A stretch of DNA of 64,000 nucleotides from the NCBI RefSeq assembly GCF_000738435.1, contig NZ_CP003984.1, forward strand, positions 1,116,001-1,180,000. The letters run 5' to 3'. Position numbers and translations under genes: made by a program. Source of the DNA: Planktomarina temperata RCA23. Its GTDB lineage: Bacteria; Pseudomonadota; Alphaproteobacteria; Rhodobacterales; Rhodobacteraceae. Positions 7,992-61,861 of the stretch are shown here, piece after piece. The stretch's first letter is position 1; each line of letters begins with the position of its first letter. Under the pieces are notes generated by a model. The model saw only the letters and a program-made list of their open reading frames with translations, was not told where the DNA came from and did no database searches.

Positions 7992-8912
7992 TTGCAAAAA
8001 ACACTGAAATCAGAAGTGGTTTTCACGGGCGTTGGCCTGCATTGCGGGCGTGACGTGACGCTGCGCGTGCGGCCTGCGGCGGCGCAGACGGGCATTTGGT
8101 TTCGGCGCACAGATGTCTCTGATGCAGATCCCTATATCTCCGCCAATTGGCAATGTGCGGTCCACACCGCGCTGTGCACGCGCTTGGTCAATGCCGATGG
8201 TCTGGGCGTGTCGACTGTGGAGCATGTTATGGCCGCGATTGCCGGCTGTGGGATCAACAATGCTGTTGTTGAACTGGACGGCCCAGAGGTGCCCATTATG
8301 GACGGCTCCGCATTGGAGTTTGTTCGGGGCTTCTTGAAGGCTGGGCTGATTGAGCAAGCGGCACCTGTTCAGGTGTTGGAAATTCTGCAAACGGTCGAAG
8401 TGCAAGAGAATGGCGCCTATGCGGCTTTGATGCCCTTCGGTGGAATTGAGATGGATTTTTCAATCGATTTTCCAGATGCGGCGATTGGGCAGCAATCGAA
8501 AACGCTCAATCTTGCCAATGGTAGTTTTGTGCATGAGCTCTGCGATAGCCGGACATTTTGCCGAAATTCTGATGTGCAAGTGATGCGCTCCAACGGTTTG
8601 GCTCTTGGTGGAACATTGATGAATGCAGTTGTGATTGAGGGCGCCGATGTTTTGAGCCCTGGCGGCATGCGTCATCCTGATGAACCGGTGCGCCATAAAA
8701 TGTTGGATGCTATGGGCGATCTCGCGCTTGCGGGCGGCCCGATTATTGGCCGCTATGTCGGGCGGCGTGCCGGTCACACGCTGACCAACAAGCTGCTGCG
8801 CAAGCTCTTTAGCCAACCCGGTGCGTTTCGCAGGGTGGACTGTGATGCGCAAATGTCCGAGCGCTTGCCCGGAGCAGGATTGGCTCAAGAAGATGTGCGT
8901 ATTTACGCATAG
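7992..8912 (+). CDS. lpxC: UDP-3-O-acyl-N-acetylglucosamine deacetylase
   Basis: LpxC removes the acetyl group from UDP-3-O-acyl-GlcNAc, the committed step of lipid A synthesis; it is a zinc enzyme of the cytoplasm. The 306-residue product shows the N-terminal motif VFTGVGLHCGRDV, the zinc-ligand helix STVEHVMAAIAGCGINN, and the second zinc motif VRHKMLDAMGDLALAGGPIIG, then GHTLTNKLLRKLF. The start is a TTG at 7992 behind GAGGTCC, giving the typical MQKTLKS N-terminus. Placement after ftsZ and before bamD is the usual order in this group. It shows the organism makes lipid A. Confidence 0.96.
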   Translation: MQKTLKSEVVFTGVGLHCGRDVTLRVRPAAAQTGIWFRRTDVSDADPYISANWQCAVHTALCTRLVNADGLGVSTVEHVMAAIAGCGINNAVVELDGPEVPIMDGSALEFVRGFLKAGLIEQAAPVQVLEILQTVEVQENGAYAALMPFGGIEMDFSIDFPDAAIGQQSKTLNLANGSFVHELCDSRTFCRNSDVQVMRSNGLALGGTLMNAVVIEGADVLSPGGMRHPDEPVRHKMLDAMGDLALAGGPIIGRYVGRRAGHTLTNKLLRKLFSQPGAFRRVDCDAQMSERLPGAGLAQEDVRIYA

Positions 8913-22195: not shown

Positions 22196-24334
22196 ATGCC
22201 AAAATATATCCAAGTTTCAGGCCTCTCGGTGGCCGAAGAGTTACATAAGTTCATCGAGTCTGAAGCTTTGGACGGTTTGCCGATCAGCGCCGCTCGGTTT
22301 TGGGATGGCCTGTCAGAATTGGCGCATGAGTTGGGTCCAAAAAACCGGGCCCTTCTGGCGCAACGTTCAGATATGCAGGGAAAAATTGACGCCTGGCACA
22401 TCGCGCGCCGCGGTCAGGCGCATGACGCTGCCGCCTATCAAGACTTTTTGAAAGAGATTGGTTATTTGGTGCCGGAACCGGCGGATTTTTCGGTGACGAC
22501 TCAAAATGTAGACCCCGAAATTGCGTCAACGCCCGGCCCGCAACTTGTGGTGCCGATCATGAATGCGCGCTATGCGTTGAACGCAGCCAATGCCCGCTGG
22601 GGCAGCCTCTATGATGCGCTTTACGGCACGGATGCTATGGGTGACTTGCCAAGCGGTGGTGGCTATGATGCGGCGCGCGGTGCGCGCGTGATCGACTGGG
22701 CCAAAGCCTATTTGGATCAAGTCGCGCCCTTGGCCTCTGGCACACATGCGGATGTGACAGCCTATGAGGTTGTGGGGGATGCCCTGGTTCCCGCTCTTGC
22801 GGATCCATCGCAATATATCGGGATGAACCGGGACGATAGCGGTGCGTTGGTGGAAGTGGTTTTGCAGAAAAACGGTCTGCATATTGCCATTCAAATTGAC
22901 CCGAAGGGTAATATAGGCAGCGGGGATAAAGCGCATGTGGACGATATCCTGCTGGAAAGCGCGATTTCGGCCATTATGGATTGTGAAGATTCCGTGGCCG
23001 CGGTCGATGGGGCAGATAAGGTTGTGGCCTATCGCAACTGGCTTGGATTGATGCGCGGTGATCTGCGTGAGACGGTGAGTAAGGGCGGCAAATCCTTTGA
23101 CCGGGTCTTAAACGCAGATCGCAGCTATCTAAATGCAGGTGAGACCCACACACTCAAAGGCCGCGCGCTCATGTTGGTGCGCAATGTTGGGCATTTGATG
23201 ACGAACCCGGCGGTCATTGATCATGATGGGCTGGAAATTGGCGAAGGCTTGTTGGACGCTCTGTGCACGACGCTGATCGCGATGCATGATTTACAGCGCT
23301 CAGGTGGCAACTCGCTGCATGGCTCGGTTTATGTGGTCAAACCCAAGATGCATGGCCCCGATGAGGTGGCATTTGCAGATGAAATCTTCACCAGGGTCGA
23401 GCGCATTTTGGGCTTGCCGCAAAATACCGTAAAGCTCGGCATCATGGATGAGGAACGCCGTACAAGCGCCAACCTCAAAGCCTGCATCAAAGTGGCCGAG
23501 GCGCGGGTGGCCTTTATTAATACTGGCTTCCTGGATCGCACGGGCGATGAAATTCACACCTCGATGGAAGCGGGGCCCATGATTCCAAAGGGGCAGATGA
23601 AAGTCACCCCTTGGATCAATGCCTATGAAGACCGAAATGTTGATATCGGTTTGGCATGCGGTTTGCAGGGCAAGGCGCAGATTGGCAAAGGCATGTGGGC
23701 CATGCCGGATTTGATGGGTGATATGCTGGCGCAAAAAATGGGTCATCCAAAAGCGGGTGCGACCTGTGCTTGGGTTCCAAGCCCAACGGCCGCGACCCTG
23801 CATGCCACCCATTATCATCAGGTTGATGTGATGGCGGTGCAAGCAGAGCTGAAAGCCAAAGGCCCGCGCCGCGGTCTTGATGACCTGTTGACCATTCCTG
23901 TGGCCGCCGGCAGCAATTGGTCACCCGATGAGCTGACGCAAGAGATTGAAAACAACGCGCAAGGCATCTTAGGCTACGTTGTGCGCTGGGTGGACAGTGG
24001 CGTTGGCTGTTCGAAAGTGCCAGACATCCACAATGTGGGGCTGATGGAAGACCGTGCGACGTGCCGCATTTCTTCGCAGGCCTTGGCAAATTGGTTGCAT
24101 CATGATGTTATTGACCGCGATATGGTGATGGCCGCCATGAAAAAAATGGCCGCTGTGGTCGATGGGCAAAATGCGGGTGACGCCAGCTATACGCCCATGG
24201 CTCCGGGTTTTGACGGGATCGCTTTTAAAGCGGCCTGTGATCTCGTGTTTGAAGGTCGGGTGCAGCCTTCCGGTTATACGGAACCAGTCCTGCATCGCCG
24301 GAGATTGGAATTGAAAGCCGCGCAGGCGCAGTGA
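22196..24334 (+). CDS. glcB: Malate synthase G
   Basis: Condenses glyoxylate with acetyl-CoA to malate, allowing growth on two-carbon compounds and glycolate. The 712-residue single-chain form corresponds to isoform G. Family motifs include [38 protein letters not shown], and the active-site stretch [19 protein letters not shown], with CLASS-G sequence PNPTA-like [16 protein letters not shown]. The ATG at 22196 follows CTGGAGATTGCGACT. Two dyad elements precede it. The next gene, a GlcG/HbpS-like protein 61 bases downstream, is a known companion of glycolate and glyoxylate genes. Confidence 0.97.
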
Positions 24335-28378: not shown

Positions 28379-29812
28379 ATGGAAATGGGCTTTACCACTG
28401 CCGTCTATGTTGTTGCGGCTATTCTTTTCATTTTGTCCCTCGGCGGTTTGTCGGGCCAAGAAAGTGCCAAACGGGCCGTTTGGTATGGCATTGTCGGCAT
28501 GGCGCTGGCGGTGACAGCCACATTGTTTGGACCCGGGTTTGGTCTTTGGGAGTTGTCTTTGGTTTTGATCGCGGCCGGTGGGTTGATTGGCTATCAACTG
28601 GCATCAAAAGTTGAAATGACCCAAATGCCAGAGCTGGTGGCCGGCATGCATGCCCTTGTCGGGCTGGCAGCTGTGTTTGTTGGGTTCAATACGCATTTTG
28701 AGCTGGTCAATGTTGCGGCCATGGATGAGAGCGCGCGTAAATCTTTAGAAGGTTTTGCGGCCCTTTTGGCGAAAAAGACCGCGGTCGAGATCAATATCTT
28801 GCGGGTTGAGACATCGCTCGGGATTTGGATTGGGGCTGTCACCTTCACAGGATCTGTGATCGCTTACGGAAAATTGGCGGGCAAAGTGAATTCTGCTGCC
28901 ACAAAACTGCCAGGCGGGCATGTGCTCAATGCCACGGCGGCATTGGTCTCATTGGCCTCGCTGATCTGGTATCTGAATTCTGGCGCCTTGATGCCGATGA
29001 TGATTTTGACCCTTATGGCTTTGTTCATTGGCTATCATTTGATCATGGGCATTGGCGGCGCGGATATGCCGGTTGTGGTCTCCATGCTCAACTCCTACTC
29101 GGGTTGGGCGGCCGCAGCGATTGGCTTCAGCCTTGGCAATGATTTGTTGATTGTCGTGGGCGCTTTGGTCGGATCGTCAGGTGCGATTTTGTCCTACATC
29201 ATGTGCAAAGCGATGAATCGCTCTTTTGTCAGCGTGATCCTTGGCGGCTTTGGCGGAACAGCAGGTCCGCAAATGGCTGTGGAAGGCGAGCAAGTGGCCA
29301 TTGAGGCAGATGGGGTTGCGACCGCTTTGAATGAAGCTGACAGCGTTATCATCATTCCGGGCTACGGGATGGCCGTGGCTCAGGCGCAGCAATCGGTTTC
29401 GGAATTGGTGCGCAAACTGCGCGCTAAGGGCAAGAATGTGCGCTTCGCCATTCACCCCGTTGCGGGCCGTTTGCCCGGTCACATGAATGTGCTCTTGGCC
29501 GAAGCGAAGGTGCCCTATGACATCGTCATGGAGATGGATGAAATCAACGATGATTTCCCAGACACAGATGTGGCCATTGTCATCGGATCAAATGACATTG
29601 TGAATCCGGCAGCCCAAGATGATCCCAACAGCCCCATTGCTGGGATGCCGGTTTTGGAATGTTGGAAGGCGAAACAGGTGTTTGTGTCCAAACGGGGGCA
29701 GGGCACCGGCTATTCGGGCATCGAAAACCCGCTATTCTTCAAAGAAAATACGCGGATGTTCTATGGGGATGCAAAAGCCTCATTGGACAAGCTGCTTCCG
29801 ATGATAGAGTAA
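28379..29812 (+). CDS. pntB: NAD(P) transhydrogenase subunit beta
   Basis: PntB supplies the remaining membrane helices and the NADP(H)-binding domain III. The 477-residue protein begins with helices ([21 protein letters not shown]) and ends with domain III, seen as [40 protein letters not shown] and [27 protein letters not shown]. The start at 28379 has an AAGGAGG site eight bases upstream. It forms an operon with pntA, closed by a hairpin terminator. Confidence 0.97.
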
Positions 29813-29820
29813 TAAAACAT

Positions 29821-29856
29821 GGCGTCGCCAGATTGCACCCTGGCGACGCTGCTTTT
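29821..29856 (+). terminator. Terminator after pntAB
   Basis: A stem GCGTCGCCAG (29822-29831) pairs with CTGGCGACGC (29840-29849) around an 8-base loop, and a GCTTTTT tail follows. It is the only structure in the 67-base gap between pntB and the DUF3422 gene. Confidence 0.88.
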
Positions 29857-51911: not shown

Positions 51912-52001
51912 GGACAGGTGGCCGAGTGGTCGAAGGCGCACGCCTGGAAAGTGTGTAGGCGGGAGACCGTCTCCAGGGTTCGAATCCCTGTCTGTCCGCC
52001 A
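51912..52001 (+). tRNA. tRNA-Ser(GGA)
   Basis: A 90-base class II tRNA. The seven-base acceptor stem GGACAGG / TCTGTCC (last pair G-U), anticodon loop CTGGAAA with anticodon GGA at 51946-51948, a long variable arm GGGAGACCGTCTCC and the T arm AGGGTTCGAATCCCT are all present; discriminator G and CCA are encoded. The last 16 bases form the attachment core of the element described below, and the insertion keeps the tRNA whole. Confidence 0.97.
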
Positions 52002-52106
52002 TCACCGCCTTACTAGCAGTGGCATATCCCCGATAAGCATCAGTTATAACTCAGTTCTTCTGGCCCGGCGCTTGTAATGCCGCACGTGAGTACTGACCAA
52101 ATTGCT
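51986..52106 (+). repeat. Inverted repeat 1, left copy (core plus integrase arm)
   Basis: A 121-base sequence repeated, base for base, in inverted orientation at 53267-53387. It begins with the tRNA-derived core ccctgtctgtccgcc and ends inside the integrase start codon region. Near its inner end lie two copies of CTGACCAAAT spaced about 13 bases apart (one complete by 52112), which look like integrase arm-binding sites. Confidence 0.95.
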
Positions 52107-53268
52107 GACCAAATCTATCCCCCATACTTTCATCCGTAATGGCTACTATTACTTCTCCAGACGTGTTCCTGCTGACTTGCGAGATCACTATTCTTACCAT
52201 CGTATTGTCCAAGGGCTGCGTACTACATCCCCTCAGAAAGCTAAGGTGCAAGCCAGTATTACGGCTGCCAAGCTAGAGGCGTACTGGAGCCAGATGCGAT
52301 TGGCTAAGTCTGACGTGATTGGTTTGTCGTTGGTTAAAGGCTCTTCCAGCAGTCTAAAAGTCGCCCCCAAGCAGCCTAACATCGACTGCCCATCCCTTTT
52401 AGATGCCTTAGAGGTCTATCTTGAGCAGAAGGGTAAAGGTCGCCCCAAGACCTTTCGTGTGGCAGCTGAGCGGTCCTGTAACTATCTGATTGGCCTCTGC
52501 GGTAACAAGTCGTTGTCAGATTACACTCGCCAAGATGCTCTTCAATTCAGGGATTGGCTCGTTGCACGTGGACTTACAGGTTCCAGCATTACCCGCAATT
52601 TTTCGTATCTGAAGGCAGTCATAAACTTTGCTCTGTCTGAGTATGCCTTGGATATTCGTAATCCTTTTGTTGGAGTCTATCACGATCGCAGTGCTGGGGT
52701 TTTAGTTCGTAAGCCAATACCTATTGAGGCTATTAGAAACGTACAATCTGAGTGTCATGCAATCGATGATGATATGAGATGGCTGATAGCTTTGATCTCT
52801 GACACGGGAATGCGTTTGGCTGAAGGGGCAGGGCTGCTTAAGGAGGATTTGGTAGGGCTTGATACGGATCTGCCATGTGTCCGTGTAACCAAACATCCTT
52901 GGCGTAACCTGAAGACATCAAGCAGTGAACGACACATTCCACTTATTGGTGACGCATTGTGGGCTGCTAGACGCATAGTAGAGGCAGATAATGGGTCAGA
53001 CTTTGCTTTCCCAAGGTACAATAGGACATCACCCACAGCGGCTAACTCTGCCAGTGCGGCACTAAACAAATGGCTTAAGCAGTATGTCCCAGCAGGATGC
53101 ACGATGCACAGCTTTAGACACTCAATGCGGGACAGGTTAAGGGTGGTTCAGTGTCCTTCTGATATCACTGACCAAATAGGTGGATGGACGACTGATGGTG
53201 TAGGGCAGGGGTATGGTTCAGGCTATCCGCTGAGTGTGCTGCGGGATTGGCTAGAGAAGGCCAAATAG
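52102..53268 (+). CDS. int: Tyrosine recombinase (integrase)
   Basis: A phage-type integrase of 388 residues. An N-terminal YYYFSRRVPADLRDHY domain (DUF6538-like, arm-binding) is followed by a SAM-like core-binding domain (about residues 95-190) and the catalytic domain with Arg 238 (DTGMRLAEGAGL), HSFRH (His 336, Arg 339), Trp 362 in place of the second His, and the nucleophile Tyr 371 (GQGYGSGY). The start is TTG at 52102 in the left repeat, after an upstream stop; no ATG precedes it. The gene fills the space between the two copies of the 121-bp repeat, and its stop lies within the right copy. Confidence 0.93.
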   Translation: MLTKSIPHTFIRNGYYYFSRRVPADLRDHYSYHRIVQGLRTTSPQKAKVQASITAAKLEAYWSQMRLAKSDVIGLSLVKGSSSSLKVAPKQPNIDCPSLLDALEVYLEQKGKGRPKTFRVAAERSCNYLIGLCGNKSLSDYTRQDALQFRDWLVARGLTGSSITRNFSYLKAVINFALSEYALDIRNPFVGVYHDRSAGVLVRKPIPIEAIRNVQSECHAIDDDMRWLIALISDTGMRLAEGAGLLKEDLVGLDTDLPCVRVTKHPWRNLKTSSSERHIPLIGDALWAARRIVEADNGSDFAFPRYNRTSPTAANSASAALNKWLKQYVPAGCTMHSFRHSMRDRLRVVQCPSDITDQIGGWTTDGVGQGYGSGYPLSVLRDWLEKAK

Positions 53269-53387
53269 CAATTTGGTCAGTACTCACGTGCGGCATTACA
53301 AGCGCCGGGCCAGAAGAACTGAGTTATAACTGATGCTTATCGGGGATATGCCACTGCTAGTAAGGCGGTGATGGCGGACAGACAGGG
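53267..53387 (-). repeat. Inverted repeat 1, right copy with inverted core
   Basis: An exact reverse complement of 51986-52106; comparing the two by eye showed no mismatch over 121 bases. It ends at the inverted core ggcggacagacaggg (53373-53387). Perfect identity implies a very recent duplication or active gene conversion or inversion. Confidence 0.95.
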
Positions 53388-53512
53388 TGTTCATCTCCTG
53401 TTGCATCCACCAGTAATCAGCTAACTCTATGTAATCACTGGATACAGCATACCTCAGTTCACTGCAATAAGGCGCATATTGGTCAGTAATCTGGTCAGTA
53501 ATGCAGACCCCC
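53267..53512 (-). other. Candidate complete attP between integrase and cargo
   Basis: Read on the minus strand the order is: two ACTGACCA-type motifs (near 53490-53512), about 100 bases, the core ccctgtctgtccgcc (53387-53373), about 90 bases, then two more CTGACCAAAT motifs near 53267-53290. Both sides of the core thus carry tandem integrase arm motifs, as in a phage attP. The left element end has only the right-hand side of this site (next to tRNA) and the right element end has only the left-hand side, as expected of attL and attR. Confidence 0.65.
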
Positions 53513-54110
53513 CCTGCATGTGCCACCCCACCCCCTAGGGATACCGTACATAGCTCTGACCTGCGATTGGGTTCTGGGTATCGTCAACCAGCAGCATCAG
53601 CCTGTTTCAATGATACTTGACGGTTTCATCTGTGCGGTAGGGTGTGGGCTGTATGTATGCCTCTGCTACTTCGTAGGATGCTTATGCATGAAGCCTTCAG
53701 TTGTTACCCAGTATCCTAGGAAATCGTTACAGTAGCATCAGAGGGCCTCTGCATGGGCCACAGGGGGTGTGCGGGGTAAGTATATATGGCCTCTGCCAGT
53801 GATTAGCCCTGTGAGTTTGTAAACTACTATTGGTTCAGTTTCGGGTAAGATGACCGTGATTGAAGTCCTTAGGGGGACAAAGTGCTATAGTAATATATAG
53901 GAACCTGTCCCTTTAACGGTGTCACTCCCCCGAAACTTCAGGCTCTGGCCCGTAGAGATACTCCAGCTTTAGATTACTGATAGCACCTTCACCCCAGCCT
54001 GTGGTTAGATGCGCCAGTACTTCTGCCTCAGACCAAGGGGTGTAGATGCTGGTGGTAGGACTGCCTGAGTAATCCTTCGGGAGGAATAGATGCTGGTGGG
54101 TGCTGGTGCG
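53373..54110 (+). repeat. Inverted repeat 2, left copy
   Basis: About 735 bases repeated in inverted form at 59216-59952. The first ~560 bases match almost perfectly except two short clusters (near 53690-53715 and 53755-53790). Beyond 53922 the repeat runs into the 3' end of the replication gene, where similarity falls. It contains no convincing gene of its own between 53388 and 53921. Confidence 0.93.
53655..53910. other. Possible replication origin within the large repeat
   Basis: Three copies of GCCTCTGC (53659-53666, 53745-53752, 53789-53796) occur, two of them inside small dyads (CAGAGGGCCTCTG at 53739-53751; TGGCCTCTGCCA near 53787-53798). An A+T-rich stretch (CTATAGTAATATATAGG, about 53883-53900) follows. 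Such iterons beside an AT-rich stretch, next to a replication gene, fit an origin. The mirrored copy lies near 59415-59670. Function is inference only. Confidence 0.35.
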
Positions 54111-57100
54111 TTTAACCTTGGCGTCAAAGGTGGCTATCTGGGTGGCTGTTCGGACGAGTGCGGGCAGTTGAGTTAATAGCCGCTTGGGATCAGAAGCTTT
54201 GGAACGCTGAAACAACTTCTTAGCTGCCCCTTTGGATAGACCCAAGTTGTCCTGCATCTTCTCCAACCCTAATGGTGTAAGAGGTAGGTCACCTGTTCTG
54301 ATCAGTTCCATTTCCAGCCTGTCAGGCATCAAGTCGTTAAACTCAATCAGGTGATCTACTGGCATCTCGACAGGCAGGTTCGATAGCAAGAATACTCGCT
54401 TCTGATAATCAGCCCAAACTAACCTCAACCGAGCAATTGCCTGTACAGTCTCAGCCTCCCTGATTTGCTTTTGAACTGCTTTAATGCGGGGATCACTAAA
54501 TGATGGAACTGTCATAGCTGCTGGAGATTGAGGGCTACGTGCAGACAGCCAATATTCAACCTGATCTAAGGGTAGGTTCTCTTTATCATCATAGCTTAGT
54601 GGATTGCCTGAGTTACCATAGACTGACCTCGCTTGTTGTTCGATCTCATCGATTGGTGGCTGGTTGCGGCCCGTAATAAATACAACTGATCTATCCGCAT
54701 AGGCATTGGAACCACGTAAGGACATAAAGTGTGCCACAGCTACACCTGTATCAAGCTTAGGGTGCTCTCGCAGGAACTCACATAAATCTTTGTTTCCTAC
54801 TATTAGAGGGCTTTCTCCTGCCTTCACCCATGCGTTTAGGATTGTGATTAAGCTGGCTAAGTCATTGTGGCGAGCATCATAGGTTGGTTCTGACAGGTTC
54901 TCTTGCTCTGGTCCGATCTTGCTGTTCCAGAAGTTTTTACTACCAGTGCGATCATGTACCTGACTGACCACAGCTAATTGGTGAACATCAATCTGATGAT
55001 ATTGCAGGGCTGGTAGATACGCTTCTGTGATTATGGGGTCAGCCGTAGCATCCAAGTAAAGCACTGGCGTAGACCGTGGCACTCGAATGGGCTTATGCTC
55101 ACAGATCACAATATCGTTCTTGCGGTTGTTGTTTCGGGTTTTTCTATTGTCGTGAATCAACTGCCCAAAGCTGTCTCTACCCTGGTCCTCAACCTCCCGT
55201 GCTGCGATCTCAAGTAATTTGGTCAGAGCCTTATATTGCTTGGCGGATCTCACATTGCGGCTTTGCGTCGTCCCAGCACTGAAGGGGGTAGCTGGATTTA
55301 GCCCTTCAACCGACACGGCGTTGAACTCAAAGGCTCCAATGTCTTTGTCCCGTAGGTAGGATAGATCACCTTGATGTTTGGTTAGGCACTCCACCAGATC
55401 AAAGCCTAAACTGGGAAGGCCTTCCAAACGAATATGCTGTGTCACATCACCCACTGGCATGGATGGCATATTGCTAACGGCAGAGGACATAAACGCCTCA
55501 TCTATTATTACCAGATCAGGCTCTGCTTGGCGTTCAAATTCATTCCTGCTCAGAAACAAGGACGCATGAGTGTAAATACGGATCGTATTCTCAACGCCCA
55601 GATCATTGCCCGATTGCCTGAACTGATCCAAATAGCTACAATTGCCAAAGAAGCTGCATTGCTCTCCTGAGGTACGGCTTAGACAGGCATTGCCATAGAT
55701 GCTGTGACCCTTCTCTTCCAAATCCCTGACATACTCTGCCCGCTGACACATTATAGGATGCGGGTATGAGTTCTGCTCTTCGTCCCATTTACCGCCTGTA
55801 CGGGGATAAACGTGAATGACCCTGGCATTGATGCCTTCTAAGCTTTCTTCCCATTCGTCAGCTAGATCATGTCGGGGGACGTAGACTTCTATGGTCTGCT
55901 GGAACTTATCTGTCAGATACTTTTTTAGTTCGGCTATTGTTTGTTTGGTTTTACCTGTTCCCATAGTCAGGCGAACAGCAGCCCTTGGGCTAGCACCCCT
56001 AGCCAAGTCCTCGAAGAAGCCGCCTAGAATGGTATTGAGTTTTGATTGTGCTTCCACGGCTCCGACAAGCTTCGGGCGTGCCACCTTACCTGCACCTGCA
56101 ACAAGTATCGTTCTGTCTGAGCGAGATACAAAGTCATACGTACCGTTATTAAGTTCATGCAACCTTGCTCTGGCCTTTGTTGCAGCATCAGCAACTGTCC
56201 AAGGGCCACGGGCAGACACCACGCTTATATCTGCTTCTTCACAGAAACGGTCCCAGAGGGCAGCGGTCACCTCTTCTTCGCTTGGAGTGTGTTCTAGGGT
56301 GACCAACTGCTGCATGACCTGGGTGGACAGTAAGAACATAAGTTGTTCCCTGCCATCGACGGCAAGACCAGTATCTGGATCACGGATAATATCGGCAGGA
56401 TCAAGCAGTCCTGATTTGCCACTTGTTCTTTGCTTTGACGACCTTGAAGCGACAGCACTCCTGAAAGCTAAATCAGATGGCACTGTTACGGTTGATATTC
56501 CAGTGCCAGCTTTAAACAAGCCAGACCTGTTTGGATAAGGATCAACAGCACCATCGCTAAATAGAGGGTTAGCCGTCAGGTGGATTTGGATTGGATTGAA
56601 CATCCGCATGTCGACAGGACCGCCAGACAGCCACGCCTTCAGTTCATTGTCAGAACACGTGCGTTCCAACCAGAACCACAGATGCACATTAATCCCAGCT
56701 TTGATGCCCATGCTGGATGAAAAATGATACCAGCAGTCAGCAGCTTGGAACTCAACAGGAAGCTGCTGGATTGCATAAGACACCATTTCTTGTTGATCAG
56801 AAACATCACCATCCCAAGCAAGGCTATCGATGTCGATCATGCACCACTGGCGAGGTATTGCTGTGAAGTATTCCATTTTGCGAGGCACTGGGCTGTTTTT
56901 ACCGTCCGTCAGTGACCCTCTGATGACCGTATGCTTGGGATCATTCTCAAGTCTTTGCAGCAATGCGGACAGGCTTTGAAGATCTGATACTGGCTCTTCA
57001 GATACATTGAACAGTTTGCCAGTGGAAAAGGGCTGTGGGGATAATTCTTGGCCAGTGAAGCTTTTAACAAGGGAATGCCCAGAGGCAGACGTCAGGAGTG

Positions 57101-57116
57101 TCACTACTTCGCCCAT
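53922..57116 (-). CDS. Primase-helicase replication protein (AEP-like plus SF2 helicase)
   Basis: A 1064-residue protein. The N-terminus resembles archaeo-eukaryotic primases: CMIDIDS (Asp 95 and 97), INVHLWFWLE (His 145) and VDPYPNRSGLFKAG (Asp 192) in the expected order. A helicase follows: Walker A LTMGTGKTKQT (residues 384-393) and DEAD-like LVIIDEAF (near 539-542). Between them four cysteines (457, 478, 487, 493) recall the Fe-S cluster of XPD/DinG helicases. It would start element replication. The start at 57116 has GGAGAGGG six bases before it; an ATG at 57155 has none. Its last ~60 codons lie in the large repeat. Confidence 0.75.
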   Translation of the reverse strand: MGEVVTLLTSASGHSLVKSFTGQELSPQPFSTGKLFNVSEEPVSDLQSLSALLQRLENDPKHTVIRGSLTDGKNSPVPRKMEYFTAIPRQWCMIDIDSLAWDGDVSDQQEMVSYAIQQLPVEFQAADCWYHFSSSMGIKAGINVHLWFWLERTCSDNELKAWLSGGPVDMRMFNPIQIHLTANPLFSDGAVDPYPNRSGLFKAGTGISTVTVPSDLAFRSAVASRSSKQRTSGKSGLLDPADIIRDPDTGLAVDGREQLMFLLSTQVMQQLVTLEHTPSEEEVTAALWDRFCEEADISVVSARGPWTVADAATKARARLHELNNGTYDFVSRSDRTILVAGAGKVARPKLVGAVEAQSKLNTILGGFFEDLARGASPRAAVRLTMGTGKTKQTIAELKKYLTDKFQQTIEVYVPRHDLADEWEESLEGINARVIHVYPRTGGKWDEEQNSYPHPIMCQRAEYVRDLEEKGHSIYGNACLSRTSGEQCSFFGNCSYLDQFRQSGNDLGVENTIRIYTHASLFLSRNEFERQAEPDLVIIDEAFMSSAVSNMPSMPVGDVTQHIRLEGLPSLGFDLVECLTKHQGDLSYLRDKDIGAFEFNAVSVEGLNPATPFSAGTTQSRNVRSAKQYKALTKLLEIAAREVEDQGRDSFGQLIHDNRKTRNNNRKNDIVICEHKPIRVPRSTPVLYLDATADPIITEAYLPALQYHQIDVHQLAVVSQVHDRTGSKNFWNSKIGPEQENLSEPTYDARHNDLASLITILNAWVKAGESPLIVGNKDLCEFLREHPKLDTGVAVAHFMSLRGSNAYADRSVVFITGRNQPPIDEIEQQARSVYGNSGNPLSYDDKENLPLDQVEYWLSARSPQSPAAMTVPSFSDPRIKAVQKQIREAETVQAIARLRLVWADYQKRVFLLSNLPVEMPVDHLIEFNDLMPDRLEMELIRTGDLPLTPLGLEKMQDNLGLSKGAAKKLFQRSKASDPKRLLTQLPALVRTATQIATFDAKVKRTSTHQHLFLPKDYSGSPTTSIYTPWSEAEVLAHLTTGWGEGAISNLKLEYLYGPEPEVSGE

Positions 57117-57219
57117 TTGCATCCCTCTCCAAACTTGGTTAGAAAATCTAAACATGGAAACGAAGAAGTACCAACACGTATTTATCTCAGAATGAGATTA
57201 TAAAAACGGTGGAATAGCA

Positions 57220-59214
57220 GTGGCAGAACTTACGATTGATCAGGCTTTACAGAAGGGTGTTGAGGCTCATAGAGCAGGGCAGGTTCAAGAGGCAGACCGC
57301 CTTTACACAGCTATTCTAAAAGCCCAGCCTAAACACCCTGATGCCAATCATAATATGGGTGTACTCGCTGTTGGTGTTGGTAAAGTTGAACAAGCACTCC
57401 CGTTCTTTAAGACGGCGCTGGAGGCTAATCCAGCCACGGCCCAGTTTTGGCTCAGTTACATTGATACTTCAATCAAGTTAGACAAGTTAGCTGATGCAAA
57501 GGCTGTGTTTGATCAAGCCAAAAGTAAAGGCGTTAAGGGTGATGGTTTTGATCAGCTTGAGAAACGTTTAAATGAAGCCGGCCAAGGGCCTCTAGAAGCC
57601 AATCAGATACCCGCAGAACCACAGCCTAAGCAGCCCAATATCTTAAATACTCTCAAACTGGATCAAGCTCTCAAGCTGGCGAAGACGAAAGCAAAAGAAG
57701 GCTCTCCTGAGAATGCTGAGCTTATCTATCACGACATTCTGGCTAAGTTCCCCAAGAACAAGAGAGCCAGAGATGGGCTGAAGGGGTTAGCGGGTAGACC
57801 GGTTGGGAAAGCATCCAAAGTTCAAGATCCTCGACAGGATCAACTGCAATCATTGGTTAACCTCTACAGCCAAGGGCAACTTCAGCAGGCGCTCAAGCAG
57901 GCTGAAACCTTAGTTCAGCAATTCCCACAGTCAGCCATCTTGTTAAACATACAAGGGGCGGTACTGAAAGGCCTAGGACAACTTGATCAATCCATCGAAG
58001 CTTACAAAGAAGCTGTAACCATCAAACCTGATTATTCTGAGGCCTACAACAACATGGGAATTACTCTCCAAGACCGAGGTAAGCTGGAAGAGGCCATAGA
58101 GGCGTACAACAAAGCTCTAGCTATCAAGCCTGATCATGCTGAGGCCTACAACAACATGGGCAATGCTCTCAAAGAGCAAGGTAAGCTGGAAGAGGCGATG
58201 GAGGCTTACAACAAAGCCCTAGCCATCAAGCCTGATTATGCTGATGCCTATTTTAACATGGGCAATGCTCTGAAAGAGCAAGGTAAGCTGGAAGAGGCGA
58301 TAGAGGCTTACAACAAGGCACTGGCCATCAGACCTGATTATGCTGATGCCTACAACAACATGGGCAATGCTCTCAAAGAGCAAGGTAAGCTGGAAGAAGC
58401 GATAGAGGCTTACAACAAAGCTCTAGCTATCAAGCCTGATCATGCTGAGGTATTTTGGAATTTATCAGGTTTGGCAGAATCCATATCAGATTCCAAAAAT
58501 TGGGTTGAAAAATGTTTATCGGCTGATCCAAAACATCGAAAAGCTAAGATTACATTAACTGCGCTGCAATACTATGAAGGTGATGAATCAGGGTTTGATG
58601 CTCTGATGCGGTCTTCTTTAAAAAATCATCCATATATGCGTTCTTTGGCATGGGTGTTTGAGTTACCTGTTCTGCCTGAATTATATTTCCATAGATGGGC
58701 ATTATTTGATCGCATGGTCGAACAGAGTCAGCAAGACAGGCCATTCTATGAATACGGTGTTTGGCGGGGTGAGGCGTTCCAATATCTGATTAATACTTTT
58801 AAAAAGGGTTATGGATTCGACACTTTTGAAGGCATTCCAGAAGACTGGCATGACAAAAAAGCGGGTACTTATTCTAGCGATGGAAATATACCTCAAATCG
58901 CAGGTGGAGAGTTCATTGTTGGTAAGTTTGAAGATACCCTAACCGGGTTTTTCTCTCAACCACGCCCAATGGCTTCAATAATCAACTTTGATGCTGACCT
59001 TTATTCTTCAACGATCTGCGCACTAAACTTTTCAAAGCCAGTGATTGATAAACACACCATACTAATTTTTGACGAGTTCATAGTTAACGAAAATTGGGAG
59101 CAGGATGAATATAAGGCTCTCAACGAGTTTTGTCTGAATAATAACTGTACATATGAAGTGCTAGCGATTTCATTTTTTACAAAACAGGTTGCAGTCAGGT
59201 TAATTGGTATCTGA
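57220..59214 (+). CDS. TPR-repeat / TylF-like methyltransferase fusion
   Basis: A 664-residue cytoplasmic protein. Residues 1-190 and 205-430 contain tetratricopeptide repeats, and residues about 505-664 look like a TylF/macrocin-type class I methyltransferase (YEYGVWRGEAFQYLI, GFDTFEGIPEDW, IINFDADLYSSTICAL, ILIFDEFIVNENW). Four TPR units are almost identical in DNA. It may modify a sugar or surface molecule, but the substrate is unknown. The start is GTG at 57220 after GGTGGA, 103 bases from the divergent replication gene start. It is the only cargo-like gene of the element. Confidence 0.8.
   Translation: MAELTIDQALQKGVEAHRAGQVQEADRLYTAILKAQPKHPDANHNMGVLAVGVGKVEQALPFFKTALEANPATAQFWLSYIDTSIKLDKLADAKAVFDQAKSKGVKGDGFDQLEKRLNEAGQGPLEANQIPAEPQPKQPNILNTLKLDQALKLAKTKAKEGSPENAELIYHDILAKFPKNKRARDGLKGLAGRPVGKASKVQDPRQDQLQSLVNLYSQGQLQQALKQAETLVQQFPQSAILLNIQGAVLKGLGQLDQSIEAYKEAVTIKPDYSEAYNNMGITLQDRGKLEEAIEAYNKALAIKPDHAEAYNNMGNALKEQGKLEEAMEAYNKALAIKPDYADAYFNMGNALKEQGKLEEAIEAYNKALAIRPDYADAYNNMGNALKEQGKLEEAIEAYNKALAIKPDHAEVFWNLSGLAESISDSKNWVEKCLSADPKHRKAKITLTALQYYEGDESGFDALMRSSLKNHPYMRSLAWVFELPVLPELYFHRWALFDRMVEQSQQDRPFYEYGVWRGEAFQYLINTFKKGYGFDTFEGIPEDWHDKKAGTYSSDGNIPQIAGGEFIVGKFEDTLTGFFSQPRPMASIINFDADLYSSTICALNFSKPVIDKHTILIFDEFIVNENWEQDEYKALNEFCLNNNCTYEVLAISFFTKQVAVRLIGI
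58030..58437 (+). repeat. Four tandem 102-bp TPR-coding repeats
   Basis: Units start at 58030, 58132, 58234 and 58336, each exactly 102 bases (34 codons), with only a few differences, chiefly in the wobble base and in the first codons (GATCAT/GATTAT). A fifth unit starts at 58438 and breaks off at the word TTTTGG. Near-identity at DNA level indicates recent expansion or homogenisation, so copy number may differ among relatives. Confidence 0.92.
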
Positions 59215-59215
59215 T

Positions 59216-59404
59216 CTTGCAACCCCCCACCGTCACCTTTACCTCCCCAAGGATTACTCAGGCAGCCCTACAGCCAGCATCTACACCCCGTGGACTGAAG
59301 CAGAAGTACTAACCCATCTAGCAACAGGCTGGGGTGAAGGTGCTATCACAGAGTTAAAGCTGGAGTATCTCTACGGGCCAGAGCCTGAAGTTTCGGGGGA
59401 GTGA
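59216..59404 (+). pseudogene. Truncated second copy of the replication gene 3' end
   Basis: The inverted large repeat includes a 5'-cut copy of the last ~60 codons of the primase-helicase gene, still in frame: LPKDYSGSPTASIYTPW and EYLYGPEPEVSGE match the ends of both. Differences are mostly conservative (for example Thr/Ala, Ser/Thr, Asn/Glu), so the two copies were under coding selection apart before meeting. It has no start of its own and cannot make the protein; it looks like the remnant tail of a related element. Confidence 0.85.
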
Positions 59405-59952
59405 CACCGTTAAAGGGACAGGTTCCTATATATTACTATAGCACTTTGTCCCCCTAAGGACTTCAATCACGGTCATCTTACCCGAAACTGAACCAATAGT
59501 AGTTTACAAACTCACAGGGCTAATCACTGGCAGAGGCCATGTATACTTACCCCATAGCCACCTATGGCCCATGCAGAGGCCCTCTGATGCTACTGTAACG
59601 ATTTCCTAGGATACAGGGTAGCAACAGCAGGCATCATGCATAAGCATCCTACGAAGTAGCAGAGGCATACATACAGCCCACACCCTACCGCACAGATGAA
59701 ACCGTCAAGTATCATTGAAACAGGCTGATGCTGCTGGTTGACGATACCCAGAACCCAATCGCAGGTCAGAGCTATGTACGGTATCCCTAGGGGGTGGGGT
59801 GGCACATGCAGGGGGGGTCTGCATTACTGACCAGATTACTGACCAATATGCGCCTTATTGCAGTGAACTGAGGTATGCTGTATCCAGTGATTACATAGAG
59901 TTAGCTGATTACTGGTGGATGCAACAGGAGATGAACACCCTGTCTGTCCGCC
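59216..59952 (-). repeat. Inverted repeat 2, right copy
   Basis: The reverse complement of 53373-54110. It carries the arm motifs (ACTGACCAGATTACTGACC near 59813-59835 on the plus strand), the iteron-like boxes, and ends in the right core. Together with the left copy it brackets the replication and cargo genes. The copies differ by clusters of substitutions rather than evenly, which suggests partial gene conversion. Confidence 0.93.
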
Positions 59953-59953
59953 A

Positions 59954-60256: not shown

Positions 60257-61861
60257 TTAACAGAGAAACTGTGCCTTCTGCTCCTCCCAATTGAGGGGGA
60301 TATCCTTGCCTGATAGCTTGTTTATTGTTAGCTCCTGATTGGTGGTGCCATCCAATATGGCAGTAACGAGCTTGGGTGAGAGAAAGGCCAGGCGAATACG
60401 CTTCCACAACCGCCCCTCAGAAATGCCCTCTGACGCTGTGATGTCTGAAACGCTCTTGCCAGCCTTTAGTTTTTCCACCCAGCTGCGCGATTGCACGATA
60501 GCGCGGATTAATGCGTGGTTGGGCTCGCTCTTATAGCTGGCCCAAACCATCTTGGTGCCATTACAGCGTCTTTGGAATGCCACCGGTTGTTCAAAACTGA
60601 GATAATCATGATCGAGATCATCTGTGTTTATACCGAGATGATTTACCAAGGCCTCGTGATCGATTTGAATCGCCAGGACAGAATTGCTCAAATCTACACG
60701 CGCAATCAACCTGAGCACTTGATCGATACTCAACCGTTCTAACGCCTGAATAGCTCTATTTACGTCATGAGGCTTCATCAGAGGTGCAATCTGCATCCTG
60801 TGTAGTCTTCGCCCTAACCGTTGCTTTACCATGTCCTGAAGAGCCTCCTCCATCATATCGGCCCTAAGCCGCCAGCCTGTTGGATCAGCGCCTTTGGTAA
60901 TTAAGCGGTTGGAGTAGTAATACCGGATGGAACGCCCGTTTTTGCGGGTTTTGGAGGGTGTTAACCTATCCCCTGTCTCATCAAAGACCTTACCAATCAA
61001 AAAGGCAGAGGGGCCGCGGGAGTGATGGGTGCCGCGCTTGATCACAGACTTCAGCTGCATCTGCTGTTGCACCCGATCAAATTGTTCCTGCGCTATGATG
61101 GCCTCATGGAGGCCATCATAGACATCGGACTTATGCCTGACCTTTCCAATGTAGATGGGGTTGCGCAGAATATTATGAAGACGGCCGCGGCTGTAGCTGC
61201 GGTTAGGCCAAAGCTGATCGACTTCCCGCTTGAGTTTGCTCAAACACCCCAACTCCTCATAAAGATCAAAGACGCGTTGGATATCTGGCGCGTTTTGGGG
61301 GTGCGGTTCCAAAGATTGAACTTTGGGGTCTGAATGAACCTGGTAGCCCCACGGAACCATGCCGCCCATCCACATGCCCTTCTTTTTAGAAGCCGCTATT
61401 TTATCGCGGATACGTTCAGCTGTGACTTCACGCTCAAACTGAGCGAAGGATAATAAGACATTCAGGGTTAACCTTCCCATGGAGCTGGAGGTATTGAAGG
61501 ATTGGGTGACTGATACAAAGGAGCAGCCAGCTTTCTCCAGTCGCTCTATAAGGCGGGCGAAGTCTGACAGTGATCTTGTAAGGCGATCTATCTTATAGAC
61601 CACGATCATATCTATGAGGCCTTTATCAACCTCATCCAATAGAGCCTTGAGGGCAGGGCGGTCCATGGTCCCGCCTGAGACACCACCATCATCAAAGCGT
61701 TGTTTGACCAGCTTCCAGCCTTCATGGCGTTGTGAGGCTATATAGGCGGTGCAGGCTTCATATTGAGCATCAAGGGAATTGAACTCTTGATCCAAGCCTT
61801 CCTCTGAGCTTTTGCGGGTATAGACAACTGCGCGCACGCTTGGCCGCCCCAGCCCGTTCAT
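60257..61861 (-). CDS. Large serine recombinase
   Basis: A 534-residue DNA recombinase of the resolvase/integrase group. The catalytic domain has VVYTRKSSEEGLDQEFNSLDAQ with the nucleophile Ser 18, DGGVSGGTMDRP and VVYKIDRLTRSLSDFARLIERL. A recombinase domain follows (WGYQVHSDP, ILRNPIYIGKVRHKS). The CxxC zinc-ribbon cysteines common in phage serine integrases are absent; instead FLIGKVFDETGDRLTPSK takes that place. It may be the integrase of another island or of a decayed prophage. Its start overlaps the DUF2924 stop by 4 bases, so the pair is coupled. Confidence 0.9.
   Translation of the reverse strand: MNGLGRPSVRAVVYTRKSSEEGLDQEFNSLDAQYEACTAYIASQRHEGWKLVKQRFDDGGVSGGTMDRPALKALLDEVDKGLIDMIVVYKIDRLTRSLSDFARLIERLEKAGCSFVSVTQSFNTSSSMGRLTLNVLLSFAQFEREVTAERIRDKIAASKKKGMWMGGMVPWGYQVHSDPKVQSLEPHPQNAPDIQRVFDLYEELGCLSKLKREVDQLWPNRSYSRGRLHNILRNPIYIGKVRHKSDVYDGLHEAIIAQEQFDRVQQQMQLKSVIKRGTHHSRGPSAFLIGKVFDETGDRLTPSKTRKNGRSIRYYYSNRLITKGADPTGWRLRADMMEEALQDMVKQRLGRRLHRMQIAPLMKPHDVNRAIQALERLSIDQVLRLIARVDLSNSVLAIQIDHEALVNHLGINTDDLDHDYLSFEQPVAFQRRCNGTKMVWASYKSEPNHALIRAIVQSRSWVEKLKAGKSVSDITASEGISEGRLWKRIRLAFLSPKLVTAILDGTTNQELTINKLSGKDIPLNWEEQKAQFLC

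Follow-up and report, generated by a model that had tools for sequence, protein, structure and literature searches.

A family of tRNA-targeted integrative elements that appear to carry their attachment site twice, in mirror image

The stretch of DNA considered here (the window) covers 64,000 nucleotides of the genome of Planktomarina temperata RCA23 (contig NZ_CP003984.1, positions 1,116,001 to 1,180,000, forward strand). At window positions 51986-59953 it carries an integrative element, referred to as element A, lodged in a gene for serine transfer RNA (tRNA), tRNA-Ser(GGA). Judged by its sequence, A belongs to a family of integrative elements that target tRNA genes and in which the attachment (att) site is present twice, in mirror image; the chromosomal order runs tRNA-attL, integrase, inverted attP, cargo, attR. 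Like A, the ordinary tRNA-targeted integrative elements, satellites and tycheposons combine a tyrosine integrase adjoining a tRNA gene with direct cores at both ends and a cargo of replication or defence genes. Unlike these, A holds an inverted, near-complete attP between integrase and cargo, together with two nested pairs of inverted repeats. That an inverted att site stays near-perfect in many integrase lineages and at many tRNA targets implies that the life cycle includes a step beyond the standard attP x attB reaction. A tentative proposal, which we consider somewhat more apt to be wrong than right, is that these elements form a widespread bacterial integrative class whose excised circle flips and amplifies in the manner of the yeast 2-micron plasmid, or which integrates through a folded single-strand attP. 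If this is true, bacteria would possess a natural equivalent of FLP/FRT amplification, which draft genomes have concealed because the repeats break assemblies.

Anatomy of element A

The target gene, tRNA-Ser(GGA) (51912-52001, plus strand; ARAGORN), is completed by the left core, its final 16 bp, which constitutes attL. This 16-bp core, CCCTGTCTGTCCGCCA, occurs exactly at 51986-52001 (plus), 53372-53387 (minus) and 59938-59953 (plus); the outer two copies are direct and mark the ends of the element, and the middle one is inverted. The window holds one further match, with three mismatches, at 8130; shuffled sequences give an expectation of 0.63 matches with up to three mismatches, against these four. 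Repeat pair 1 (51986-52106, plus, and 53267-53387, minus) is 121 bp long and 100% identical. Its outer arm, consisting of the core and the left attP arm, stops between two arm-type repeats at the integrase start, and the pair fits the integrase coding sequence, overlapping it by only a few bases at each end. Repeat pair 2 (53372-54100, minus, and 59226-59953, plus) spans 729 aligned bases at 95.3% identity; counted from the core, the first 300 columns are free of mismatches, which occur in clusters farther out. Its inner arm comprises the right attP arm with two arm-type repeats and, from the replication gene, about 178 bp at the 3' end. Its outer arm comprises the right attP arm, with arm-type repeats at 59826-59846, and the right core (attR), and it contains most of a relic of that same 3' end (59204-59404, plus), 83% identical over 60 amino acids.

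An earlier note on this DNA had described an integrative element with an internal inverted core, three cores in all and two repeat pairs. That description is borne out, and every coordinate holds. Its statement that pair 1 brackets the integrase only needs no more than the addition of the few-base overlaps, and the bracketing of replication gene and cargo by pair 2 is likewise correct, except that the arm itself includes the end of the replication gene, with the relic opposite.

Three long open reading frames fill the element. The tyrosine integrase (52102-53268, plus; 388 amino acids) has an open frame and matches the DUF6538 and Phage_integrase profiles; its R238, K271, H336, R339 and Y371, which we take to be the catalytic residues, are invariant across 14 aligned sequences. 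The replication protein (53922-57155, minus; 1077 amino acids) matches phage DNA primase and origin-binding profiles in its N-terminal part and, in its middle, gives a helicase-like ResIII match under the Pfam cut-off. The remaining cargo is a TPR-repeat protein with a TylF-like methyltransferase C-terminus (57220-59214, plus; 664 amino acids). Among the matches of these three frames there is no packaging or capsid-hijacking family by which a phage satellite would be recognised.

The inner site as a mirrored attP

Read on the minus strand from 54100 to 53267, A presents a right arm, a core and a left arm, the very order that joining the two element ends would give to attP. The inner site is therefore a nearly complete inverted attP and not a lone core. 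Both of its arms bear short direct repeats, putative arm-type integrase sites, so that repeats of this type flank the core. Counted from the core start, the repeats of A are ACTGACCA at -112 and -100 and CTGACCAA at +107 and +119. The left-arm repeats, S1 and S2, stand in tandem with a 12-bp period around the integrase start codon (52092-52112, plus), and the inner arm of pair 1 retains S1 only. The motif varies by lineage (CGTAGACCA in elements C, L061 and L138; CGTAGTACA in L091; all introduced below), and the places are similar: the right arm bears two repeats, some 100-115 bases ahead of the core, and the left arm one, near +69; the pattern is weaker in L093 and L063.

The end of pair 1 frequently falls between S1 and S2. 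When the best position in a 40-base range was scored, a procedure by which 37 of 1360 shuffled stretches reach at least seven of nine bases, 53 of the 68 loci with pair 1 showed an S1/S2 match of at least 7/9 near the end of the outer arm. In 50 of these 53 the inner arm had at most five matching bases at the same position, the exceptions being L079, L101 and L105. In most loci, then, the inner site is an attP without S2. Where pair 1 extends into the integrase, as in C and L061, both left-arm repeats occur in both copies. Excision would not produce the usual single attP, since the inner inverted attP would stay in the excised form.

Recurrence in the same genome and in relatives

The P. temperata genome, a single contig of 3,288,122 bp, contains three further full elements, namely B (at tRNA-Ser(TGA)), C (tRNA-Thr(TGT)) and F (tRNA-Leu(CAA)); each has its three cores and the two repeat pairs. 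Another, D, at tRNA-Leu(CAG), has pair 1 only. In the decayed element E the left core matches A only from its eleventh base on, and the two arms are no more than 77% alike, a single natural case which suggests that arms drift apart after the site breaks. The integrases of C and D are only 54-55% identical to that of A, and that of F only 42%, so the mirrored layout is old. With flanks of 1.5 kb fetched for all 21 tyrosine recombinases of the genome, the repeat was seen for A, B, C and F only (that of D needs a wider span, and E is decayed) and in none of the 15 other recombinases; a general trait of tyrosine recombinases was thus rejected for this genome. Two repeated sequences lie near these elements. 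One, a dispersed repeat of about 110 bp, flanks E (L010 4734-4843 and 8980-9089, corresponding to genome positions 1200733-1200842 and 1204979-1205088) and has similar copies near B and D. The other, a 1171-bp sequence of 99.7-99.9% identity near D and F (L030, L029; genome positions 1410735, 1420586 and 449749), is probably an insertion sequence.

Beyond this genome, the 14 aligned integrases were searched against genome contigs and the best 80 of 283 relatives were analysed, together with three of five relatives found in viral contigs. The resulting 83 loci overlap with those collected from the genus (L078, for instance, is L058, and L125 is L061) and are related, not independent. An inverted repeat brackets the integrase in 67 of the 83. 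In seven of the 16 loci lacking it, the gene lies less than about 110 bp from an end of its contig, which leaves 67 of 76 informative loci; the nine informative loci without a repeat are L116, L128, L130, L132, L137, L143, L149, L156 and L158. A direct repeat around the integrase was found in 0 of 83 loci, and comparison of the upstream side of one locus with the downstream side of another gave inverted matches in 2 of 245 cases (at a threshold of 85% identity; 84% for the same-locus counts). On these two controls a chance origin was rejected. The tRNA targets include Ser, Thr, Arg, Phe and Leu. Close integrase relatives occur in 8 of 20 genus genomes and, at E 1e-80, in 16 of 394 genomes of a family sample, so the elements are widespread, not common. 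In a wider set of DUF6538 integrases the repeat was not seen in 27 of 30, the fetched flanks being too short for long integrases; the three positive loci were A itself and two already in the main set.

An empty tRNA-Ser(GGA) site was not found among seven loci with the tRNA flank, two of which had the core, each followed by another leader. In these two, L264 (core at 2187) and L282 (core at 1669), the different leader carries a tandem CTACCCACAACGCTACCCACAA at the ATG, the same 12-bp style of arm site at a start codon. A further arrangement is seen at L088 2912-9314, between tRNA-Arg(CCT) and tRNA-Thr(CGT), where two integrase modules face each other across about 3.3 kb, with repeat pairs of 100% and 98.8% identity.

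Twelve elements have three cores together with pair 1 and pair 2, so that the question raised by the earlier note, whether the layout recurs in marine Rhodobacteraceae, is answered in the affirmative. Besides A, B, C and F, they are L058, L061 and L063 of IMCC1909, which clusters within P. temperata according to PMC10675870; L138 of Leisingera aquaemixtae; L093 of Leisingera aquimarina; L091 of Ruegeria HKCCA6707; L248 on the complete megaplasmid of Ruegeria TM1040 (85 bp in pair 1 and 1148 bp in pair 2, each at 100% identity); and G218, with a pair 2 of 3183 bp at 100% identity and only the 3' part of a tRNA-Phe before its left core. L248 has a further inverted repeat (22401-22547 and 29680-29826; 147 bp, 96.6% identity) just inside pair 2, around restriction-modification genes.

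Repeats of this kind might be suspected of arising in assembly, and the region does break assemblies: of the 68 loci with pair 1, 41 have no more than 1 kb of contig left past the inner arm. Such contig ends are just what a long repeat predicts, and the arms differ in places. The genome of the window is one contig, and the layout is present on the TM1040 megaplasmid, a complete sequence, and in the interior of a contig of 4.6 Mb. An artefact, which the earlier note had named as a possible refutation, is on this evidence next to impossible and was rejected. Mirrored elements explain why a class of contigs in draft genomes of Rhodobacterales ends where it does. In G315, 3068 bp separate the inner core from the contig end, and another core lies at an equal distance from the start of a second contig. 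In G135 three contigs end about 100, 105 and 530 bp past the inner arm. In this genome (contigs C2, C3, C4 and C6) three contigs measuring 0.34-0.78 Mb stop at these elements and one of 4.7 kb stops within a replication gene, so that the repeats appear to set the breaks.

Concerted evolution of the arms

The arms are far more alike within elements than between them, a pattern of sequence that points to concerted evolution. Within A, B and L058 the left arms show 0 differences in 121 positions, compared with 5-8 in 121 between these elements; of about 700 right-arm positions, 29, 9 and 4, respectively, differ within the elements and 74-89 between them. Pair 1 is 100% identical in 39 of 68 loci. 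The stretch common to elements with different cargo is limited to about 115-140 bp of the right arm, past which pair 2 reaches by varying lengths into cargo DNA, be it the end of the replication gene, a BRO gene or a 634-amino-acid open reading frame. Such variable reach is expected if recombination keeps shifting the edge of pair 2. Mismatches near the core in L093, L138 and L063, unlike A, B, C and L061, indicate that homogenisation does not always start at the core.

Orientation of cargo and integrase

The earlier note had supposed that recombination between the cores would leave such an element free to adopt four arrangements. This proves half right: the cargo lies in both orientations among sister elements, and the integrase is nearly fixed. 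The replication gene abuts the inner core in A and C and the outer core in B and L058 (2:2). The DNA of A and B is about 90% identical in both halves with the replication module opposite, so that an inversion of one half must have occurred; B and L058, which occupy the same tRNA gene of two related strains, share one orientation. Type I restriction-modification genes provide a weaker case, the elements concerned being distant: they are directed toward the integrase in L091 (minus) and away from it in L093 and L248 (plus), a ratio of 1:2. These orientations were compared between sister elements and not within one culture, and where pair 2 exceeds the read length the assembler may have picked the cargo orientation arbitrarily.

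Among the 68 loci with pair 1, 13 of which had no tRNA found, the integrase is directed away from the tRNA in 54 of the 55 that can be placed and toward it in one (L087, at a contig start). The integrases of A, B, C, D and F, which stand outside this count, are likewise directed away. It follows that inversion of the integrase module, or integration via the inner site, is rare or not retained, and equal use of both attP copies was rejected. A cargo that flips beside an integrase that stays is unlike the outcome of free integrase action on both inner pairs or of equal attP use. Cargo inversion may be the work of homologous recombination across the long pair 2, not of the integrase.

A possible 2-micron-like flip, and its rivals

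The likeliest function of the inverted attP, put forward from the anatomy as a possibility well short of an expectation, would be a flip and amplification of the excised circle akin to that of the 2-micron plasmid. Recombination of attL with attR would release a circle, of 7952 bp in the case of A, carrying two inverted attP copies of about 850 bp each that flank the integrase and divide the circle into an integrase half and a cargo half. Recombination between the inverted sites while the circle replicates, performed by the integrase and aided or replaced by homologous recombination, would set up double rolling-circle replication and so amplify the excised form. From such recombinogenic replication, cargo inversion and homogenisation of the arms would follow, the flip itself taking place across the long pair 2 or, in the predicted circle, across a whole copy of about 850 bp. 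Reintegration would proceed only via the outer site beside the integrase start, the sole copy with the second left-arm repeat in most loci.

The yeast plasmid supplies the precedent: as set out in PMC3147054, its recombinase FLP makes two isomers and starts double rolling-circle replication, which is itself recombinogenic. In both systems inverted repeats, each with the target of a self-encoded recombinase, would split a circle in two (PMC3147054), the circle being a predicted one here. Unlike the 2-micron plasmid with its FLP/FRT, the family of A is bacterial, integrates at tRNA genes, and employs a DUF6538/Phage_integrase recombinase and attP-like sites with arm repeats. In favour of the flip are the mirrored anatomy, its recurrence, the near-identity of the arms, the arm repeats in both copies, the presence of cargo in both orientations, the open integrase with its invariant residues, and the replication genes carried by A, B, C and L058 and, in D5-type form, by L061.

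Several observations weigh against it. Were both attP copies equal, half of the integrases should point toward the tRNA, and nearly all point away. Pair 1 runs into the integrase in C, D, L108, L115, L131 and L154, which should place both left-arm repeats in both copies, and these six, too, are directed away from the tRNA. No replication gene was recognised on L091, L093 and L248, all of them full elements, so amplification is not the whole reason for the layout, barring helpers or unrecognised genes. For D, neither a third core (sought in 404000-462000) nor a pair 2 was found. More generally, among 22 loci with at least 4 kb past the inner arm, a third core and pair 2 are present in six (L078, L091, L093, L125, L138 and L248) and were not found in 16, including L083, L088, L090, L151 and L155, where about 29-30 kb were examined; the search asked for the arm start as an exact copy of 13 bases and for repeats of at least 60 bp, by which degenerate ends would be missed, and L087 is oriented the opposite way within this count. 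Long contigs are, moreover, a biased sample in this respect, because pair 2 breaks assemblies. Set against the flank of L093, those of L090, L111 and L151 yielded no clear result. Loci without a third core may be decayed, larger or of a simpler form. Relatives with one core pair, which the earlier note thought would tell against its reading, are thus found in part: most of these 22 loci show pair 1 alone, and the six have the full set.

A rather unlikely account, which assigns the inner site no function, would derive the layout as a by-product of an inverted dimer, one half of which lost the integrase and the other the replication gene, with the repeats homogenised by recombination. The inner copy keeps the first 30-74 integrase codons in C, D, L060, L061 and L066, and the end of the replication gene is duplicated in A, B, C and L058, as a dimer with complementary losses predicts; RecA acting on the long pair 2 would invert the cargo without integrase, and a pair 1 without pair 2, as in 16 of the 22 loci, fits a decaying relic. 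A relic, however, would hardly be expected to keep its layout in 67 of 76 informative loci with many tRNA targets. Pair 1 is often 75-121 bp, short for homologous recombination, yet it is 100% identical in more than half of the loci, and in 53 of 68 its repeats end near the tandem left-arm repeat, with the inner copy lacking the second unit in 50 of the 53.

Unlikely, too, but the main rival on the question of function and best able to accommodate the single integrase orientation, is integration with an attP folded from a single strand, on the model of CTXphi and integron cassettes. Within a single-stranded circle, the inverted copies would pair into a duplex attP stem with integrase and cargo as end loops, the integrase would exchange one strand only, and replication would complete integration. 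As far as complementarity goes, the two inverted att sites could pair within one strand, and a folded attP would account for the complementarity of whole arms, spacers included, and for the retention of the layout in elements without a recognised replication gene. In CTXphi, according to PMC3089051, a hairpin stem forms by pairing of two dif-like sites that face opposite ways, and one pair of strands is used; attP1 and attP2 resemble the present sites in being oppositely oriented att sites for tyrosine recombinases (PMC3089051). The CTXphi sites lie about 90 bp apart in a forked hairpin of 150 bp and are served by the host XerCD, whereas the sites here are more than 1 kb apart with far longer arms, and the family of A has its own integrase and no known single-stranded genome. 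Among the cargo proteins searched, no relaxase or rolling-circle replication gene was recognised, which leaves the single-stranded circle with no known source. Entry by gene-transfer agents was dropped as such a source, RCA genomes being reported, in PMC10675870, as being without complete agents. Folding, furthermore, gives no cargo inversion by itself, and pair 2, at up to 3183 bp, far exceeds any attP. Very unlikely is an expression switch, in which inversion at the inner site would toggle integrase or cargo through the DNA upstream, by read-through from the tRNA in the case of the integrase. The integrase does lie close behind the tRNA and co-directional with it in 54 of 55 loci, but its opposite orientation is almost never found, and pair 1 has the integrase 5' leader on both sides, so that the leader would move along with the gene.

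These elements offer a natural setting in which inversion-driven replication or single-strand integration could be put to the test in bacteria. No description of such a layout was found at the level of titles and the opening lines of abstracts, a search that left subscription journals largely outside and is weak evidence of novelty. A text search of the RCA pangenome paper (PMC10675870) turned up no mention of integrase, genomic island or inverted repeat, and the paper reports RCA members as being without plasmids and complete prophages.

Cargo, replication genes and the neighbourhood of element A

The elements are a carrier of restriction-modification and other cargo in a group that includes RCA members. 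Type I restriction-modification genes are found on L091, L093 and L248, a replication gene on A, B, C and L058, and a D5-type primase-helicase with a transposase on L061. The TPR repeats of the cargo are fused to a TylF-like methyltransferase in A and to sulfotransferase domains in B and C; these proteins (window 57220-59214; L009 7921-10467; L028 10911-13175) have similar N-terminal repeats and different C-terminal enzyme domains. Relatives of the replication protein occur in 2 of 295 genomes of the family sample (E 1e-30) and 4 of 20 of the genus (E 1e-15). None with 80% coverage was found among plasmids (24 records) or phages (450 records), and none was confirmed in viral contigs. Just past attR, at window positions 60257-61861, a large serine recombinase gene (Resolvase and Recombinase) is directed toward attR and possibly marks a second element beside tRNA-Ser(GGA).

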